Virus record (IMG/VR): IMGVR_UViG_3300028569_000206
Span: 1 to 20,267 of that record
DNA length: 20,267 nucleotides
Reading direction: 5' to 3' (one strand)
From: a virus
Shown piece after piece: positions 232 to 20,259 of the stretch (its first letter is position 1; each line of letters opens with the position of its first letter). The position numbers were made by a program, and so were the translations under genes. The notes under the pieces were generated by a model that did not search any database, was not told where the DNA came from, and worked only from the letters and a program-made list of their open reading frames with translations.

Positions 232-477
232 TTAGAAATTCTGTTGTTCTGCCCTGATGATTGCTGTTGATGATGCACGATCAATTTTTAAAAACCCTTG
301 ACAGGTGATGTTATAGTCTTGTCCGTTTAAATCTTTTTCGCTTTTGACTGGCACCGAGATATCTAAATTTTTAAATAGGTATTCTTTGCCGTCTTCAAAG
401 ACTCGCCAGACATGATCCATAGTGCCACGACCATTTTGACCTCGCGTCTTATTGAACCGTATTTGGTAAGTTTTCAT
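232..477 (-). CDS. Conserved cyanophage-type protein, 81 aa, function unknown
   Basis: This is an 81-residue protein starting MKTYQIRFNKTRGQNGRG, then DHVWRVFEDGKEYLFKNLDI, and ending with a beta-rich segment. From memory it resembles a small protein of unknown function in cyanomyoviruses; this was not searched. It has no signal peptide or membrane segment. Its ATG (477-475) overlaps the stop of the upstream oxygenase gene as ATGA (477-474), so the two are probably translationally coupled and may work together. A terminator follows its stop. Aromatic and charged residues alternate in a way that suggests a small beta-sandwich, but this is inference. Confidence 0.85.
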   Translation of the reverse strand: MKTYQIRFNKTRGQNGRGTMDHVWRVFEDGKEYLFKNLDISVPVKSEKDLNGQDYNITCQGFLKIDRASSTAIIRAEQQNF

Positions 478-1175
478 ATTACTTCAGCAGGTGCTGGGCA
501 GGCAGCTTGAGGAGCAGGAATCACTGTCAAATTAAAATGAACAAATTTAATGGGTGTGTTTGCTGCATGGCGAGTAAACGAATGAGGCAACCATGAGTTA
601 GAAAAAATCATCATGCCAGGTTTGGGCGTGAAATTAATCATTTTGCTGGCAGGAGTTGCCATGTTTACGTCTTGTTCCGGCAAATCAATTTGCACTTTGG
701 CAGCGCGTGGGTCGTAAAACACAACATTAGAACAATTCTCTGGGGTCTCTAGAAAATAAAAACCTACTATTTGTGAGCCATAACCATGCACATGCGCATC
801 CATTGCGGAATGTTTGTGATGCTCTTGTATCCACATCTCAGTAAAAGAAACAGCTTTATCCCCCATCGCATAGCCCTGCTCATTAAGAATATTCCAGGCT
901 GTAGCACCTACAAACTCAATAAACTTGGTCATGCAAGGAGCATCAAAAAAATTACCCGTCATGTAGACAGGGTAAATTTCGTTTAAGTCATGTTCTTTGC
1001 GTTGAATCTCTAAATTTTCTTCAGCTATTTTGCTAACTTCTTCCAAAAAATCAGGTCGCTCAATAATGTAGATAGGGCAGGGGAAATGGTGTGCAACCTG
1101 AAGTTGTATGTTATTGGTAGCTATAGAATTTTTACATATTTTTTGTTTTGGTTTTTTGCTTGTGGTCTTTGGCAT
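474..1175 (-). CDS. 2OG-Fe(II) oxygenase, PF13759/TIGR02466 type
   Basis: This is a 233-residue protein whose C-terminal half carries the double-stranded beta-helix pattern of the putative 2OG-Fe(II) oxygenases common in cyanophages. The iron-site histidines appear at H128-x-H130 (DAHVHGYGSQIVGFYFLE), where Asp or Glu is often the second ligand in other families. The distal His is H198 in PKPGMMIFSNSWLPHSF. The position that usually holds the 2-oxoglutarate-binding Arg is K210 (PIKFVHFN), an unusual substitution. Known members hydroxylate proteins or small molecules, but the substrate of phage members is unknown. The N-terminal 20 residues are Lys-rich. The stop overlaps the next gene's start (ATGA), and the gene sits at the end of a tail-fibre run, so modification of a virion or host surface protein is possible (inference). 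Confidence 0.85.
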   Translation of the reverse strand: MPKTTSKKPKQKICKNSIATNNIQLQVAHHFPCPIYIIERPDFLEEVSKIAEENLEIQRKEHDLNEIYPVYMTGNFFDAPCMTKFIEFVGATAWNILNEQGYAMGDKAVSFTEMWIQEHHKHSAMDAHVHGYGSQIVGFYFLETPENCSNVVFYDPRAAKVQIDLPEQDVNMATPASKMINFTPKPGMMIFSNSWLPHSFTRHAANTPIKFVHFNLTVIPAPQAACPAPAEVI

Positions 1176-1211: not shown

Positions 1212-1592
1212 TTAGAGCTGCTCCTGTTCAGATACTAGCACCCAACTTGTAGTTTCTTCGTCCCACACATACTTTTTACCATCAGTCGGATACGGTATTG
1301 GCGCATTCCAACTACAAGTATCTTCGTTTAACACCCAAGAATTATAAGGTTTTGGTGGAATAAAAGCATTTAGGTGCGAATTGAAACTGTAACCAATTCC
1401 AGCATAGTTTTTGTATATGCGTCCGTTGTAACTGGTCTGAATCCATTTGGTATGTGTGCCATAAAGGCTTTGGCAAAATTGTTCGCCAAGCCAAGCGTCT
1501 TCAACTCCTAAATCATTTTTTATGACATCGTTATTTACCACGATGACTTGTTCAACAATCCAATTTTCGTTTACCCGTGCAAAGTGTGCCAT
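1212..1592 (-). CDS. Conserved cyanophage tail-associated protein, 126 aa
   Basis: The protein opens MAHFARVNENWIVEQVIVV and has the blocks KNYAGIGYSFNSHLNAFIPP, PYNSWVLNEDTCSW and VWDEETTSWV. I recall this pattern from a very widespread cyanophage protein of unknown function found beside tail-fibre genes. It is rich in Trp, Tyr and Pro, soluble, with no signal peptide. Its ATG shares the A of the upstream glycine-rich gene's TAA (TAATG at 1595-1590), so it is probably translated by reinitiation after that adhesin. This supports a role with it, for example as a fibre tip, a fibre-assembly helper or a virion part. Identification is from memory of the sequence pattern; no search was run. Confidence 0.85.
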   Translation of the reverse strand: MAHFARVNENWIVEQVIVVNNDVIKNDLGVEDAWLGEQFCQSLYGTHTKWIQTSYNGRIYKNYAGIGYSFNSHLNAFIPPKPYNSWVLNEDTCSWNAPIPYPTDGKKYVWDEETTSWVLVSEQEQL

Positions 1593-2467
1593 TAAAAAGT
1601 AATGCTCCCAGATCCAGTAAATTTGTAGTTGCGGTAACCACCGTTAATGGTAATCGTCGGACTACCGGTAGTGGAGACTGCTGCAAAAAATGTATCTGGA
1701 TAACGGATAATAGCAATGCCCGAACCACCGCTGCCGCCGTTTGTATTTTCGTTAGTAGTAGCGTGACCCCCTCCACCACCGCCACCTTTATTGGTAGCAC
1801 CTTGTCCAGCAGGAGCACTTGCATTACCTCCACCACCACTTCCGCCTGTCCCTGGAGTTCTAGTTATGAAATTCATTTGCGCTCCCCCGCCACCGCCGCC
1901 AGCGTAAAAAATGTAGTCAAAAGCTTGTTGTCCTGCACCACCATTTCCACCTGCCGATTGCGTTCCATTATTGCCCACTGCACCGCCACCGCCACCGCCA
2001 CCCGCAGCAAGACAACCTGTCAAAGTGGGACTACCTCCATTAAACCCTTCACCTGGGTTACCAGTCCCTGGGCTGCCAGGGCTACCATTACCCGCTCCCT
2101 CACGTGTTCCACCTCCACCGGAACCTCCAGATCCACCAGAAAAAGCAAAATTACATCTAGTTCCGCCGCCGCCGCCACCAGTAGATGTAATAGAAGAAAA
2201 ACTTGAATTGCTACCGTTAAACCCTCGATAATTTACGTTGCAGTAAATGCACGAGAAGCCCCCACCACCTCCACCGCCGATCGTAATTGTATATGTGGTT
2301 CCTGCGCTAACACTAAATCCTGCAGCAGTTTTAAACCCACCAGCGCCACCGCCACCGCCGCATTTGCCGCCGCCAGCACCGCCAGCAACTACCAAGTATT
2401 CAACGGTAGGTGTAACAGACCCAAAACTACGTTGATTCATAAATACAGCTTGTAAAGCGCCGCTCAT
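1592..2467 (-). CDS. Glycine-rich tail adhesin-like protein
   Basis: This 291-residue protein begins MSGALQAVFMNQRSFGSV, then a beta segment VEYLVVAGGAGGG, and then about 200 residues of Gly runs (blocks of 5 to 8 Gly) broken by Ser/Thr/Asn. It ends with GSGIAIIRYPDTFFAA and a short beta C-terminus. The Gly-block pattern matches phage fibre-tip adhesins and Gly-rich tail proteins, in which polyglycine-II helices pack and the loops contact the host surface (family knowledge). The start at 2467 is chosen because ATGA overlaps the upstream stop (2467-2464); an ATG nine codons earlier (2494) is possible. A Cys-x2-Cys pair (CIYC) and other Cys residues are unusual for such proteins. Proline-rich antisense frames here are by-products of the Gly codons. 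Confidence 0.8.
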   Translation of the reverse strand: MSGALQAVFMNQRSFGSVTPTVEYLVVAGGAGGGKCGGGGGAGGFKTAAGFSVSAGTTYTITIGGGGGGGFSCIYCNVNYRGFNGSNSSFSSITSTGGGGGGTRCNFAFSGGSGGSGGGGTREGAGNGSPGSPGTGNPGEGFNGGSPTLTGCLAAGGGGGGGAVGNNGTQSAGGNGGAGQQAFDYIFYAGGGGGGAQMNFITRTPGTGGSGGGGNASAPAGQGATNKGGGGGGGHATTNENTNGGSGGSGIAIIRYPDTFFAAVSTTGSPTITINGGYRNYKFTGSGSITF

Positions 2468-3270
2468 GTTAGACCGCTCCCGCTGATAAGCCAAGATGTT
2501 GATGTAATCTTAATGCAAGTTGCAGAGCCATATTGAGCTAATGTGCGCGAACCTGTGGTGCCAGCAGATGACAACGTTAAAGTATCAGTTGTTATTGCAA
2601 TTGTAACGGCTGCTGCTGCCATATTAATGAATGTAAGGGCTGTACCGATTGGATAAGCTACAGAACTGTTGGCTGGTATTGTAAATGTCCTTGCGTTGTT
2701 ATCGCCAACAGGGTGGAATATAACTTTACCTGAATCAGTTAAAATCAACGTATAAGCAGCTGATTGAGAATTAACAGGTAGACTGAGGAACCCAACTGCA
2801 TCGGTGCCATCCACTGTGCAACTGGATAGTGTGCCAGATGTAGGTGTACCTAGTACTGGGGCTGTGAGTATAGGAGAAGTAAGTGTTTTGTTGGTAAGAG
2901 TCTGGGTGCCAGCAAGAGTAACATCGCCTTTTGAAACCGCGACAGTTAATGCAGCATTACCAGAAGCTAATGCAGTAGTACCAGTACTTTGCGCAAAATT
3001 ACCCGAAGATAACGCATTCAGTCCTGTACTAATTCCAGCATTACCCGAAGATAACGCATTCAGTCCTGTACTAATTCCAGCATTACCAGAAGCTAGTGCA
3101 GTATTAGCCGTACTTTGAGCAAAATTACCGCTAGCAACAATAAAGTAACGTTGATCTAACGCACCTACTTGAATACTCTTATTAGTTACTCCAGATGCCT
3201 GGACTACAGGAAAAAAATCACCACTGGCAAGAGTGACAATTTGTGTAAATTGAGATATTTTTTGGCTCAT
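2464..3270 (-). CDS. Tail-fibre protein with short tandem repeats
   Basis: This is a 268-residue fibre-like protein. The N-terminus (MSQKISQFTQIVTLASGDFF, then PVVQASGVTNKSIQVGALDQ) resembles the virion-attachment end of phage fibres. The middle holds repeats of the type ASGNAGISTGLNALSSGN, including a perfect 14-residue duplication, followed by TLAGTQTLTNKTLTSPILT. The C-terminal half (from about residue 160) has the pattern SQSAAYTLILTDSGKVI... FTIPANSSVAYPIGTALTF... LISGSGLT, common in phage fibre and appendage proteins. There are no membrane segments. It overlaps the adhesin gene by 4 nt, so the two probably form one fibre assembly. The upstream gene stops 5 nt before its start. Confidence 0.8.
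   Translation of the reverse strand: MSQKISQFTQIVTLASGDFFPVVQASGVTNKSIQVGALDQRYFIVASGNFAQSTANTALASGNAGISTGLNALSSGNAGISTGLNALSSGNFAQSTGTTALASGNAALTVAVSKGDVTLAGTQTLTNKTLTSPILTAPVLGTPTSGTLSSCTVDGTDAVGFLSLPVNSQSAAYTLILTDSGKVIFHPVGDNNARTFTIPANSSVAYPIGTALTFINMAAAAVTIAITTDTLTLSSAGTTGSRTLAQYGSATCIKITSTSWLISGSGLT
2999..3082 (-). repeat. Perfect 42-bp tandem duplication within fibre gene
   Basis: Two adjacent identical 42-bp copies lie at 2999-3040 and 3041-3082. They encode a 14-residue unit (AGISTGLNALSSGN) twice. Diverged copies flank them on both sides (ASGNFAQST..., ASGNAALTV...). Perfect DNA identity suggests recent expansion by slippage or recombination. Confidence 0.9.
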
Positions 3271-9159: not shown

Positions 9160-10500
9160 CTAACTAGGCGCAGATTTAGCATAGGAAAATATAGGTTTAC
9201 CTGCGGCCATTCGATCCCGCATTAAATTCTTTAAGGCAACAATGTCAGACGTAGCTGTAGTCGCACCTGGACTATAAATATCGGCAGATACATGTGCTCC
9301 TGTAGTGGACCCCGTTCTACCTTGAGTCCCTAAAAAAGTACCAGCTGAAATAGTAGTTCCTACTTTTAAAGCGGGGTTCAGTTCATCAAAGTGAGCAAAT
9401 AAACCATCGAATTTTTTGCCTTCTGGCGTTGTAAATCGTAGTTCTACATTATTTCCGTAAGCTCGCTGTGTGGCACCTCTTTCTAAATTAAATTCTCTCG
9501 GGTCTTTTGAGATTTTTAAAACTTCAGCAGATAACGGAGAAGTAAAGGGAGCACCCCGCTTACCTCCAGCAATAACAAAGTCAAATCCTTTTCCGCCTGT
9601 GTCGTTAGGGTTTGTTACTTCTATCTTTTGCGAAACAAACGAGTTTGTGGGTTTAGCAGTTTCTATATTTCTATTTGCCGTTTGTACCACGTTGCTTTGT
9701 TTTAACCTATTTACAAGTTCTTCAATTTTAGAAGCTGACTCATTGTAAGCTTGTTGCTTTCCAACAGTGTTAATTACCGTTTTAATTAAGCCACCAGGGT
9801 CAAATTCAGTTGGTTGCTCCTCTGTAAGATTTGAAGCAACCATGCGGTACTGATCGGCAAGCGCAGGATCATCCTCCTCTACATCTATAGCTTGTTGATT
9901 TAAAGCAGCTAATTTAGAATAAACGTCTGCTGTTTCTGAATTACCTGTTGGTTTAATCAAATTACCCGCTAACGAGGCAATTAAATTTTCATTAAAGTCA
10001 AACTCCTTCATTTTAAAAGGAGCTGATTGATCTGGTTCAGCAACAGAGCTTGCATCTGATACTGGTATACCAGAAATCTTTTTACGTAAAGCGTCAGTAA
10101 AACTAAATGTGCTAGGTCCTATGATCTTATTAACGTACTCGTTCGTCTCGTCGTAACGCTTACTGGCTTCTACCGCTCCAGGTCCTGCGTTATAAGCTCT
10201 TAGAGCTTTTTCATAGGCACCGCGCATTTTTACAGGATCTTTTGTACCTCCCCCGTAAGTTTTGACATAAGCAGCCATATTTTTGGCTGCTGCGTCCAAA
10301 GCGGCCACAGGGTCTCGTGGATTTACCCCCCAACCACGAGCCGTATCAGGCATTATCTGAGCAATACCTATAGCACCTGCACTTGAACCCGCTGTTGGGT
10401 CAAAGTTTGACTCTGCCTGAATTTGACGCTCAAATACTTCAGGAAGTAAGCCGTATCTTGCCGCTTTCTGTCTTGCTATCTCTCTGTAATTTGGAGGCAT
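9160..10500 (-). CDS. Virion transglycosylase with degenerate M23-like C-terminal domain
   Basis: This is a 446-residue two-domain protein. Residues 1-130 are a lytic transglycosylase (SLT) domain: catalytic Glu E30 in RQIQAESNFDP, AGAIGIAQIMPDTA (41-54) and RAYNAGPGAV (101-110). It would cut peptidoglycan glycan strands, probably at DNA entry. Residues 131-300 form a charged linker. Residues 305-415 match the M23 metallopeptidase/lysostaphin fold: FDFVIAGGKRGAPFTSPLSA, YGNNVELRF, FDGLFAHFDEL, VGTTISAGTFLGTQGRTGST and GAHVSADIYSP. Of the zinc ligands, D307 and H403 are in place, but the first His is missing (GGKGFD) and the HxH second His is S405. This domain is therefore probably inactive and may bind the cell wall. 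No signal peptide is present, consistent with a virion-delivered enzyme. Confidence 0.85.
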   Translation of the reverse strand: MPPNYREIARQKAARYGLLPEVFERQIQAESNFDPTAGSSAGAIGIAQIMPDTARGWGVNPRDPVAALDAAAKNMAAYVKTYGGGTKDPVKMRGAYEKALRAYNAGPGAVEASKRYDETNEYVNKIIGPSTFSFTDALRKKISGIPVSDASSVAEPDQSAPFKMKEFDFNENLIASLAGNLIKPTGNSETADVYSKLAALNQQAIDVEEDDPALADQYRMVASNLTEEQPTEFDPGGLIKTVINTVGKQQAYNESASKIEELVNRLKQSNVVQTANRNIETAKPTNSFVSQKIEVTNPNDTGGKGFDFVIAGGKRGAPFTSPLSAEVLKISKDPREFNLERGATQRAYGNNVELRFTTPEGKKFDGLFAHFDELNPALKVGTTISAGTFLGTQGRTGSTTGAHVSADIYSPGATTATSDIVALKNLMRDRMAAGKPIFSYAKSAPS

Positions 10501-10554: not shown

Positions 10555-10812
10555 TTATTTCTGCGCTAAGTCAGGAGTATCATCAAATAAATCTATATTT
10601 ACGTCTATAAGGACACCCATATCGCTTATTACGGACCTATACGCTCGTTCACGACAAACTAAACGATAAATCGTGGTCCATAAAAATTGATCTCTCTCTT
10701 TGCTCTGTAGCTCATAGGCTTTATTACGTACTCTAGTCAACGTAAACTCATCTTCTAATGTGAGGCCACACTGAAGATTGACAAGTTGACCATCAGGATG
10801 ATTTTCCCCCAT
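10555..10812 (-). CDS. nblA-like: NblA-like protein (phycobilisome-degradation adaptor family)
   Basis: This 85-residue protein has a core at residues 17-63 (LTLEDEFTLTRVRNKAYELQ, SKERDQFLWTTIYRLV, CRERAYRSVI) that fits the NblA/ycf18 pattern. In NblA, an L-S-L-E-x-E-F helix start leads into a first helix, then Q/D-x-F-L and a second helix ending R-E/D-x-x-Y-R-x-L/I. NblA links phycobilisomes to the Clp protease, freeing amino acids and lowering light capture. It is longer than usual NblA (about 60 residues), with a 16-residue N-terminal and a 20-residue acidic C-terminal extension. Homologues are known in cyanophages such as Ma-LMM01. It lies between virion genes. A sister family with the same helical hairpin cannot be excluded by eye. 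Confidence 0.55.
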   Translation of the reverse strand: MGENHPDGQLVNLQCGLTLEDEFTLTRVRNKAYELQSKERDQFLWTTIYRLVCRERAYRSVISDMGVLIDVNIDLFDDTPDLAQK

Positions 10813-10883: not shown

Positions 10884-11132
10884 CTACCACGCTTTACAAG
10901 ACCAATATCCGGCTGTTAGTTTGCTTTTCTTCTCATCACAGTTATGACGCGCACGGAAATTACGTCGTCTTTCTGGGTCATCACGTTTTATTTCCATGTT
11001 TGCGTCACCAAATCTAACTAACCGAACTTCATCGCCCTCTTTGGCTGCTACAACAGACTTTTTACCTCCCTGAATGTCCCTACGGGGCTTGTTATATTCT
11101 TGAAACACCTCGCCTGCAATTCTAATTGTCAT
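10884..11132 (-). CDS. Conserved phage Cys/His protein, 82 aa
   Basis: This 82-residue protein has a C-terminal signature that I recall from many marine and cyanobacterial phages: VRFGDANMEIKRDDPERRRN, FRARHNCDEKKSKLTAG, YWSCKAW. H63, C65 and C79 could form a metal site. The N-terminal part (MTIRIAGEVFQEYNKPRRDI) is basic. Similar proteins often lie near head or maturation genes and have no assigned function. It is the first leftward gene after the divergent region at 11133-11286, with a perfect TATAAT at 11160-11155 on its strand. No Shine-Dalgarno is seen. Identification is by pattern memory. Confidence 0.8.
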   Translation of the reverse strand: MTIRIAGEVFQEYNKPRRDIQGGKKSVVAAKEGDEVRLVRFGDANMEIKRDDPERRRNFRARHNCDEKKSKLTAGYWSCKAW

Positions 11133-11286: not shown

Positions 11287-11553
11287 ATGGACACCAAAAC
11301 ACTTTTGACTATTGCTGAAACAGCAGAATTACTGAATTGCAGTTCTGGTTTTGTCCGTAAGCGCATTTCTTTATCCGAATCCAATCAAGAAGGTGGTTGG
11401 CCTAAGAATGTTTATATAAACCTGCAACCAAACGGTGCGAAATCTCTGTACAGAGTAAACAAAACGGCATTAGAGACTTATCTTCAGACATCCGTGGAGG
11501 AAATTATAGAAGATGAAATAGATAGTGCTCCTTGTTCCGTCTGTGTTATCTAA
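11287..11553 (+). CDS. Excisionase/MerR-type HTH protein, 88 aa
   Basis: This 88-residue protein starts MDTKTLLTIAETAELLNCSS. The helix-turn-helix (residues 7-27, then FVRKRISLS) leads to GGWPKNVYINLQPNGAKSLY and RVNKTALETYL. This is the usual order of excisionase-type winged HTH proteins: binding helices, a wing, and a beta strand in place of the Tyr-recognition segment. The C-terminus is acidic with C83 and C86. The frame stays open to a GTG at 11206, but the ATG at 11287 begins the domain cleanly and follows a promoter-like pair. It stops 2 bp before the Dps-like gene and may regulate it (inference). Confidence 0.65.
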   Translation: MDTKTLLTIAETAELLNCSSGFVRKRISLSESNQEGGWPKNVYINLQPNGAKSLYRVNKTALETYLQTSVEEIIEDEIDSAPCSVCVI

Positions 11554-11555
11554 CG

Positions 11556-12101
11556 ATGACCTATTCAGATTCCTTTACTACTTCTCCTATGCAACCCACA
11601 GAAATTGCTGTTATAGATCAGACTTCAATTCAACCAGAAATTGAACAGCCGAGTACGACAGTACAAGGATTGGTCGAACATTTAATTGATTACGCCTCGT
11701 ATCTACATCAACTCTACGCGCAGGCACATTTAATACACCTAAATATCGAAGGACCTTTGTTTTTCCCGATACATGAGTTTTTAAACAAACAGTACGAAGC
11801 TCATATAGTGCAGTTCGATAAAACTTCGGAGTACGTTAGGACACTTGATTACTTAATGCCTATGTGCCAACGAGGCTTGATTCAGACTCATAAGAATTTC
11901 AAGCACGTTAAAGATTACGACACCAGAAATATGCTGACGACTTATCTTAAAAATGTAGAAGATGCTGGTATGGCAGCAAAAGATGTTTGTGACTATGCCC
12001 GCGAAATTGAAGCCGTGGATGTTGAAAACTTTATGGCTGAGACAGCAGGAGCTATGTTTAAAGCAGCGTGGATGCTTAAATCTACTTTACGTTCTAAGTA
12101 A
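11556..12101 (+). CDS. Dps-like ferritin
   Basis: This is a 181-residue protein with a 35-residue N-terminal tail and a four-helix ferritin-like body. Its ligands keep the exact spacing of the E. coli Dps ferroxidase site: H61 and H73 (12 apart), D88 (15 on) and E92 (4 on), matching H51, H63, D78 and E82. The fifth, D67, is N77 here. The surrounding pattern (AHLIHLNIEGPLFFPIHEF, QFDKTSEYVRTLDYL) follows the Dps HWnv.G..F..lHe and D..aE blocks. Dps oxidises Fe(II), stores iron and protects DNA from peroxide. In a phage it may protect DNA during infection of a light-stressed cyanobacterium. It shares an operon with the HTH gene; its stop meets the convergent fibre gene with an 8-nt overlap. Confidence 0.75.
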   Translation: MTYSDSFTTSPMQPTEIAVIDQTSIQPEIEQPSTTVQGLVEHLIDYASYLHQLYAQAHLIHLNIEGPLFFPIHEFLNKQYEAHIVQFDKTSEYVRTLDYLMPMCQRGLIQTHKNFKHVKDYDTRNMLTTYLKNVEDAGMAAKDVCDYAREIEAVDVENFMAETAGAMFKAAWMLKSTLRSK

Positions 12102-19393: not shown

Positions 19394-19404
19394 TTACCTC
19401 CTCA
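19394..19404 (-). promoter_or_regulatory. Strong ribosome-binding site
   Basis: On the minus strand GAGGAGGTAAC lies about 6 nt before the ATG of the 290-residue gene. It overlaps the TGA of the capsid gene (19404-19402). It is near-perfect to the 16S anti-Shine-Dalgarno, in contrast with the weak or absent sites of other genes here. Confidence 0.85.
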
Positions 19405-20259
19405 AACGTTGAAAGAGTAGGCAACAGTAACGAAGTCAGCGTTTAGAAGTTCAAAACCTGCGTACAGGCTCCAAATCATCATGATGAAACGGCTGAAGTC
19501 GTCGTTGTTGTTTAGGAGCACCTGAGCATTGTTACCGCCGATACCGACGCCAACACTCTGGGGACCAAAGAACATACCGATAGCACTGTCGTATGTAGTC
19601 GAAGTACCACCAATAGTTGCTGTAGCACTCTGAGAAGGCATGTTAGTGGATTCGAAGAATCGCACACCTTCAAATACAAACCCGGTAGGCATGATGGGTT
19701 CGCCAGCCACGAAGGAGGCTTGTCCAAAACCTTGGCCCATGTAGATAGCAGCGTTAGGCTGCATCGCAGACATGAGTGGGTTGATCTGACCGTTACCTGG
19801 GTAGCGAGCCACTTCGCGGAAATCGCTGTTCTGACGCAAGTGCATCAGGAACGTGGGATCGCAAACGCAACGGTAGAAACCGTCTTGGTAAGTAGGAGTA
19901 TTCCGCTTACGCAAAGACTTAACCACGCGGAGGAGGTCGTCCTTAACGTCAAACTTGGCTTGCTCTGAGTTGGTGTAGGTCAGTGACCCAACAGCCAAAT
20001 CACCAGGGTAGTAGTAACCACCTTGGGTATCAGAGGACTTACCCTTAGAAACAGCTTTCAGGAGTTCGTTAATGAACACCCGATCGCGCCAACGACGATA
20101 GTCGTCGAGCAGGGTTAAGGAACCAATTGATTGGTGGAAGGCAGTGAGATTACCGGTATCCAACAGCAAACGTTGGGCGGTAATTAGTGTCTCACGTGCA
20201 ATCTTAAATGTACTAGCTTGTGTTGGATCACTAGGGTCGGCAGGACCGGTGTCACATTG
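19402..20259 (-). CDS. Major capsid protein, 5' end unresolved
   Basis: The in-frame region covers 286 codons with no ATG at its start. It encodes an HK97-type capsid protein, shown by blocks such as RCVCDPTFLMHLRQNSDF, FVFEGVRFFESTNMPS and SAIGMFFGPQSVGVGIGG, and an aromatic C-terminus (MIWSLYAGFELLNADFVTVA). By eye it is closest to the N4 gp56/P22-like coat group. Residues before TTG 20169 (ASTFKIARETLITAQR) look coding, and the frame meets a TAA at 20262-20260, seven bases from the edge. The true N-terminus is therefore either outside the window, with a frameshift or sequence error at the edge, or a non-ATG start near 20169. It probably forms the capsid shell and is highly expressed. Confidence 0.75.
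   Translation of the reverse strand, partial: QCDTGPADPSDPTQASTFKIARETLITAQRLLLDTGNLTAFHQSIGSLTLLDDYRRWRDRVFINELLKAVSKGKSSDTQGGYYYPGDLAVGSLTYTNSEQAKFDVKDDLLRVVKSLRKRNTPTYQDGFYRCVCDPTFLMHLRQNSDFREVARYPGNGQINPLMSAMQPNAAIYMGQGFGQASFVAGEPIMPTGFVFEGVRFFESTNMPSQSATATIGGTSTTYDSAIGMFFGPQSVGVGIGGNNAQVLLNNNDDFSRFIMMIWSLYAGFELLNADFVTVAYSFNV

Follow-up and report, generated by a model that had tools for sequence, protein, structure and literature searches.

Phage-borne NblA proteins are known from Ma-LMM01, MaMV-DC and PaV-LD, and those tested cause phycobilin loss, at least some of them despite divergence (PMC9602691). The N-terminal motif of NblA is reported to bind ClpC, and its C-terminal motif to bind phycobiliproteins (PMC4103541). 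Distant marine phage NblAs have also been described (Nadel et al. 2019; S-SCSM1 ORF237; PMC9602691). These are presented as divergent NblA relatives that only profile methods recognise, and are placed in other cyanopodoviruses, S-TIM5 and T4-like phages. In our searches, S-SCSM1, S-TIM5, Syn5 and P60 gave no match to the family reported below or to PF04485, and no report of NblA in S-EIV1-type phages was found in the part of the literature covered.

Here we analyzed a 20,267-nucleotide viral stretch from IMG/VR (record IMGVR_UViG_3300028569_000206, hereafter the window), in which an earlier note had proposed an NblA-like protein encoded among virion genes. Its premise that cyanophage NblA exists, with Ma-LMM01 as example, agrees with the literature. 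The NblAs of Ma-LMM01 and PaV-LD are phage-borne in cyanophages, as is the window gene, but they are of the short NblA form and exceed the Pfam cut-off (52 and 45 bits), and the window phage belongs to another lineage. A separate set of 57 IMG/VR contigs (L204–L260) carries canonical NblA, which in most of them is of a single, closely similar type; some of these contigs may be cellular or prophage.

The NblA-like gene and its setting

An open reading frame of exactly 85 codons is present at the position named in the earlier note, which had not given the strand (Table 1). The two motifs quoted there, LTLEDEF and RERAYRSVI, occupy residues 17–23 and 54–62, a spacing equal to that of L-x-L-E-x-x-F and R-E-x-x-Y in NblA. 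Homologues with 43–57% identity were found across dozens of IMG/VR contigs, 18 columns are invariant over 37 family sequences, and dN/dS was 0.02–0.12 for the family pairs in which dS could be estimated, with synonymous sites saturated in several pairs. These results demonstrated that the frame is a real gene and no chance frame, and that the family is under strong purifying selection.

The location among virion genes was upheld as well. The late genes form a minus-strand run whose first member, at the right edge of the window, is the capsid gene; two plus-strand genes (HTH and Dps-like) break this run. Upstream of the NblA-like gene, and on its strand, are the major capsid and structural genes, and the gene directly downstream is of the transglycosylase/M23 type. 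The intervals are 71 bases to the small conserved gene upstream and 54 bases to the transglycosylase/M23 gene. The Dps/ferritin-like gene, on the strand opposite to the virion genes and beside the HTH gene, is conserved in the whole lineage. Elsewhere in the window, a 2OG-Fe(II) oxygenase-like gene (474–1175, minus strand) was not found in the sampled stretches of relatives, and a very glycine-rich 300-aa ORF (1592–2494, minus strand) lies among tail-type genes; the long proline-rich frames opposite the latter are unlikely to be genes.

Table 1. Coordinates of the NblA-like gene, its parts and its neighbours in the window.
Feature	Position	Strand	Remarks
NblA-like gene, 85 aa	10555–10812	minus	ATG start; family members; purifying selection
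NblA-type core, residues 17–63, with two predicted helices (19–34 and 38–65)	10624–10764	minus	ungapped profile alignment; models
LTLEDEF motif, residues 17–23, equivalent of the NblA N-terminal L-x-L-E-Q-x-F	10744–10764	minus	invariant in 37 members
C-terminal extension, residues 64–85	10558–10623	minus	G-V/I-x-h-D-x-N-x-x-h-F conserved, followed by an acidic tail
Conserved small neighbour gene (phrog_7595)	10884–11132	minus	anchor for unbiased synteny test
SLT transglycosylase with an M23 peptidase-like domain, next gene downstream; for lysis or virion entry	9160–10500	minus	
Dps/ferritin-like gene	11532–12101	plus	45% identical to S-EIV1 counterpart; lineage marker
Major capsid gene, cut by edge of usable frame	19402–20259	minus	~64% identical to S-EIV1; places the phage

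Resemblance to NblA over the whole domain

In the Pfam search, NblA (PF04485) was the sole match of the window protein, spanning residues 17–62 (10627–10764) with 18.2 bits and an E-value of 0.0035. The PF04485 search proposed in the earlier note thus returned the NblA family, but with a score below the curated cut-off of 25 bits. The model was matched by 20 of the 27 relatives, the best with an E-value of 0.0012. Since megabase genomes also yield chance matches to this short model at about 20 bits, we did not rely on the Pfam score. NCBIfam returned weak matches only (NblA at E 0.11 for one member), and in PHROGs the window protein had no match, its relatives having isolated weak ones. Pfam matches of relatives to Imm51, CLAG, DUF5517 and similar families were dismissed, as each occurred in one or two members only.

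Profile comparison was therefore carried out against a reference alignment of 57 NblA sequences from cyanobacterial and viral loci. The family profile aligned with it in one ungapped stretch of 47 columns (score 30.0, hhalign probability 76%). None of 1000 core-column shuffles reached the observed 29.3, the highest scoring 21.3. Of 300 shuffles of the whole profile, the best came to 26.9 against the observed 30.0. Among 36 natural decoys, which were other small-protein families taken from these contigs, the top score was 14.7. These results support statistical homology over the whole NblA domain and the proposal of an NblA-type core. A DNA signature with NblA residues and spacing, run over all of IMG/VR, gave 57 matches, all of them recognisable NblA, so the NblA-spaced signature is specific. 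Profiles of the family alone reached the solved NblA 1ojh in the PDB at E-values of 0.46–1.2 only, and a profile of both phage groups (window-type and the S-EIV1-type described below) ranked solved NblAs first, with 1ojh at 4.9e-7. Judged on these comparisons, the window protein is very likely a homologue of NblA. We class it as NblA-like and not as a PF04485 member, because the cut-off is missed and the C-terminal residues are not kept.

Two AlphaFold2 models, neither built with cyanobacterial NblA sequences, place helices at residues 19–34 and 38–65, a predicted helical hairpin in register with the NblA helix-loop-helix. The confidence of the models is low (mean pLDDT 63–64, with the core mostly in the 70s), and Foldseek searches with them against the PDB and viral models returned no solved NblA and nothing meaningful.

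A kept N-terminal motif and a changed C-terminal end

Beyond the ungapped core, NblA/ycf18 (PF04485; 1OJH, 3CS5, 2Q8V, 2QDO) and the window protein share the L-x-L-E-x-E/Q-F start and R-E-x-x-Y in helix 2. In NblA numbering, L7, L9, E10, F13, R44, E45 and Y48 are unchanged in every or almost every family member, L34 is kept in most, and M25 is present as L. Throughout the family Q11 is replaced by D, V22 by A and A30 by R, and F18 by I or V. In the N-terminal motif, which is the ClpC side in NblA, the residues L, L, E, E and F are kept in 37 of 37 members, with the Q11 to D change.

The C-terminal end differs. L51 has become V, K53 is lost, its place being taken in most cases by D, N, S or a similar residue, and G stands at the W56 position in every member, whereas Lys53 and Trp56 are almost invariant in the 57-sequence NblA set; L51 and K53 are residues which we take to bind phycobiliproteins. 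NblA has about 60 residues and the window protein 85, and the extra N- and C-terminal extensions around the core, as claimed earlier, were confirmed. The conserved C-terminal extension stands in place of the phycobiliprotein-binding end of NblA. Lake and marine members alike show this phage-specific end in conserved form, and the intermediate proteins of loci L375 and L377 have a similar one (GIDADVNFHF).

Distribution of the family

Scanning IMG/VR with the window protein yielded 52 loci (50–63% identity in the matched segment), and scanning with the family yielded 59. An Asp-form DNA signature gave 64 matches in IMG/VR, all belonging to this family, and added a marine subfamily. The combined scans comprise 58 distinct proteins, which recur throughout an uncultured lake-and-ocean cyanophage lineage. 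The family is phage-only: the family scan of a species-level genome collection found no cellular relative, and 194 sampled cyanobacterial genomes gave short matches only, three of the four with stops, and no convincing cellular relative. A tblastn search against annotated phages gave chance matches only. Lake-type members and marine-type ones (loci such as L308) share about 90% identity in the capsid protein (window 19402–20259), and their NblA-like proteins are only about half identical.

A second NblA-like branch in S-EIV1 and its relatives

The window phage is most closely related to cyanophage S-EIV1, with identities of about 64% over 288 aa for the capsid, 45% for the Dps-like protein, 53% for the phrog_29158 protein and 25–40% for others. 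The host of S-EIV1 is Synechococcus sp. PCCC-A2c, and this relationship suggests a cyanobacterial, phycobilisome-bearing host for the window phage; the marine members may infect either phycobilisome-bearing Synechococcus or Prochlorococcus. The window capsid was unmatched in the 194 sampled cyanobacterial genomes, in a search run without a positive control. Searches of 16–26 related records found no gene of the PSII CP43/47 type, the Hli type or the reaction-centre type. A survey table lists hli and ptoX in marine genomes of the group of S-EIV1, whereas its entry for S-EIV1 names no photosynthesis gene (PMC5332604).

The S-EIV1 protein AHV82245 matches nearly the full PF04485 model at 17.4 bits, below the cut-off, and its near relatives score higher. 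The window-family model missed this ORF in a profile search, whereas the Pfam model found it. AHV82245 (KJ410740, 73902–74222; L113, 32696–33016) is a 106-aa protein annotated as hypothetical and encoded beside the lysozyme gene. It is an NblA-like protein that apparently went unannotated in this cultured isolate. The S-EIV1 capsid gene, for its part, looks misannotated: one open frame (L113, 19647–20801; KJ410740, about 60853–62007) matches the window capsid, and GenBank divides that stretch between AHV82227, an ORF on the minus strand, and AHV82228, a short one on the plus strand.

Synteny was examined in loci fetched with the neighbour gene phrog_7595, NblA not being consulted. In all ten neighbour-gene loci that carry other window-lineage genes, the NblA-like gene adjoins this anchor. 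Nine more loci encode an NblA-like protein about 0.9–2.2 kb downstream; six of these nine proteins score 18.6–22.5 bits against the 57-sequence NblA profile, and the other three are weaker (9–12 bits). The remaining 61 neighbour-gene loci show neither arrangement.

AHV82245 and the proteins of L373, L376 and L378–L382 resemble the window protein in having an NblA-like core and an acidic C-terminal tail, and their genes sit in the same module of late genes, close to the shared anchor. The S-EIV1-type gene, however, follows the lysozyme gene, whereas the window gene precedes a lysis gene, and direct similarity between the two groups is not significant. With a profile built from the S-EIV1-type proteins, the match to NblA stands at 95%, but hhalign gives only 2% between the S-EIV1-type and window-type groups. 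Given this poor mutual match and the weak family-only profiles, what links the two phage groups is mainly the resemblance of each to NblA, together with gene position.

Function and alternative explanations

We favour, as the reading with somewhat better than even prospects, a divergent NblA-like proteolysis adaptor that would pass phycobilisome proteins to the host Clp protease during infection. The protein would form a small helix-loop-helix, as in NblA, which is a dimer; its N-terminal motif would dock on host ClpC, and phycobilisome proteins would be brought to the ClpC–ClpP protease. The residues with which NblA usually binds phycobiliproteins are missing here, so the cargo would instead be gripped by the second helix and the C-terminal extension of the phage protein itself. 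Amino acids would be freed for phage proteins, and excitation of the infected cell would be lowered. That pigment protein may be redirected into amino acids, as the earlier note supposed, is inferred from the studied phage NblAs (PMC9602691, PMC4103541). In favour of this adaptor function are NblA as the sole Pfam family, the ungapped match beyond shuffles and decoys, the specificity of the signature, the S-EIV1 NblA-like gene near the same anchor with its 95% profile match to NblA, the first rank of solved NblAs with the profile of both phage groups, the constant synteny in ten loci, the Synechococcus-infecting relative and the phycobilin loss caused by tested phage NblAs (PMC9602691). Against it stand the sub-cut-off score, the lost Lys53 and Trp56, the empty fold searches (with low-confidence models), the 2% hhalign match between the phage groups, the family-only E-values of 0.46–1.2, and the lack of any other photosynthesis gene in the relatives searched.

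The invariance of the N-terminal motif, set against the loss of K53 and W56 on the cargo side, would also suit an adaptor that keeps the NblA scaffold and ClpC docking but delivers another host protein, chosen lineage-wide by the surface of the second helix and the C-terminal extension, so that its Clp target differs from that of canonical NblA. The conservation of the new end across lake and marine members fits this retargeting too, but other phage NblAs are likewise divergent and some nevertheless cause phycobilin loss (PMC9602691), and we consider it unlikely, yet the strongest competitor of phycobilisome delivery. The same combination of a kept docking motif and lost cargo residues would suit a competitor of NblA that occupies ClpC and blocks host phycobilisome degradation, with light harvesting continuing during infection; as the phage NblAs examined so far promote phycobilin loss (PMC9602691), such a decoy seems very improbable.

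A further reading is that the protein is a helical hairpin of the virion or lysis module, unrelated to phycobilisomes, whose likeness to NblA arose by convergence. The position of the gene in the late virion/lysis module, the Pfam score under the cut-off and the empty fold searches are in line with it. However, not one of the 1000 shuffles or the 36 decoy families matches NblA as well, the alignment is ungapped over the whole NblA domain, and a second NblA-like gene lies in the same module of the S-EIV1 relatives, which makes convergence quite improbable.

Few phage genes are known to dismantle the light-harvesting system of the host, and phage NblA is among them. A divergent form across an uncultured lineage of lakes and sea, together with the unannotated one in S-EIV1, suggests that this strategy is wider than annotation shows. 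The kept docking motif and changed cargo end amount to a natural experiment on target recognition by NblA, and S-EIV1, with its Synechococcus host, would make the adaptor reading directly testable.
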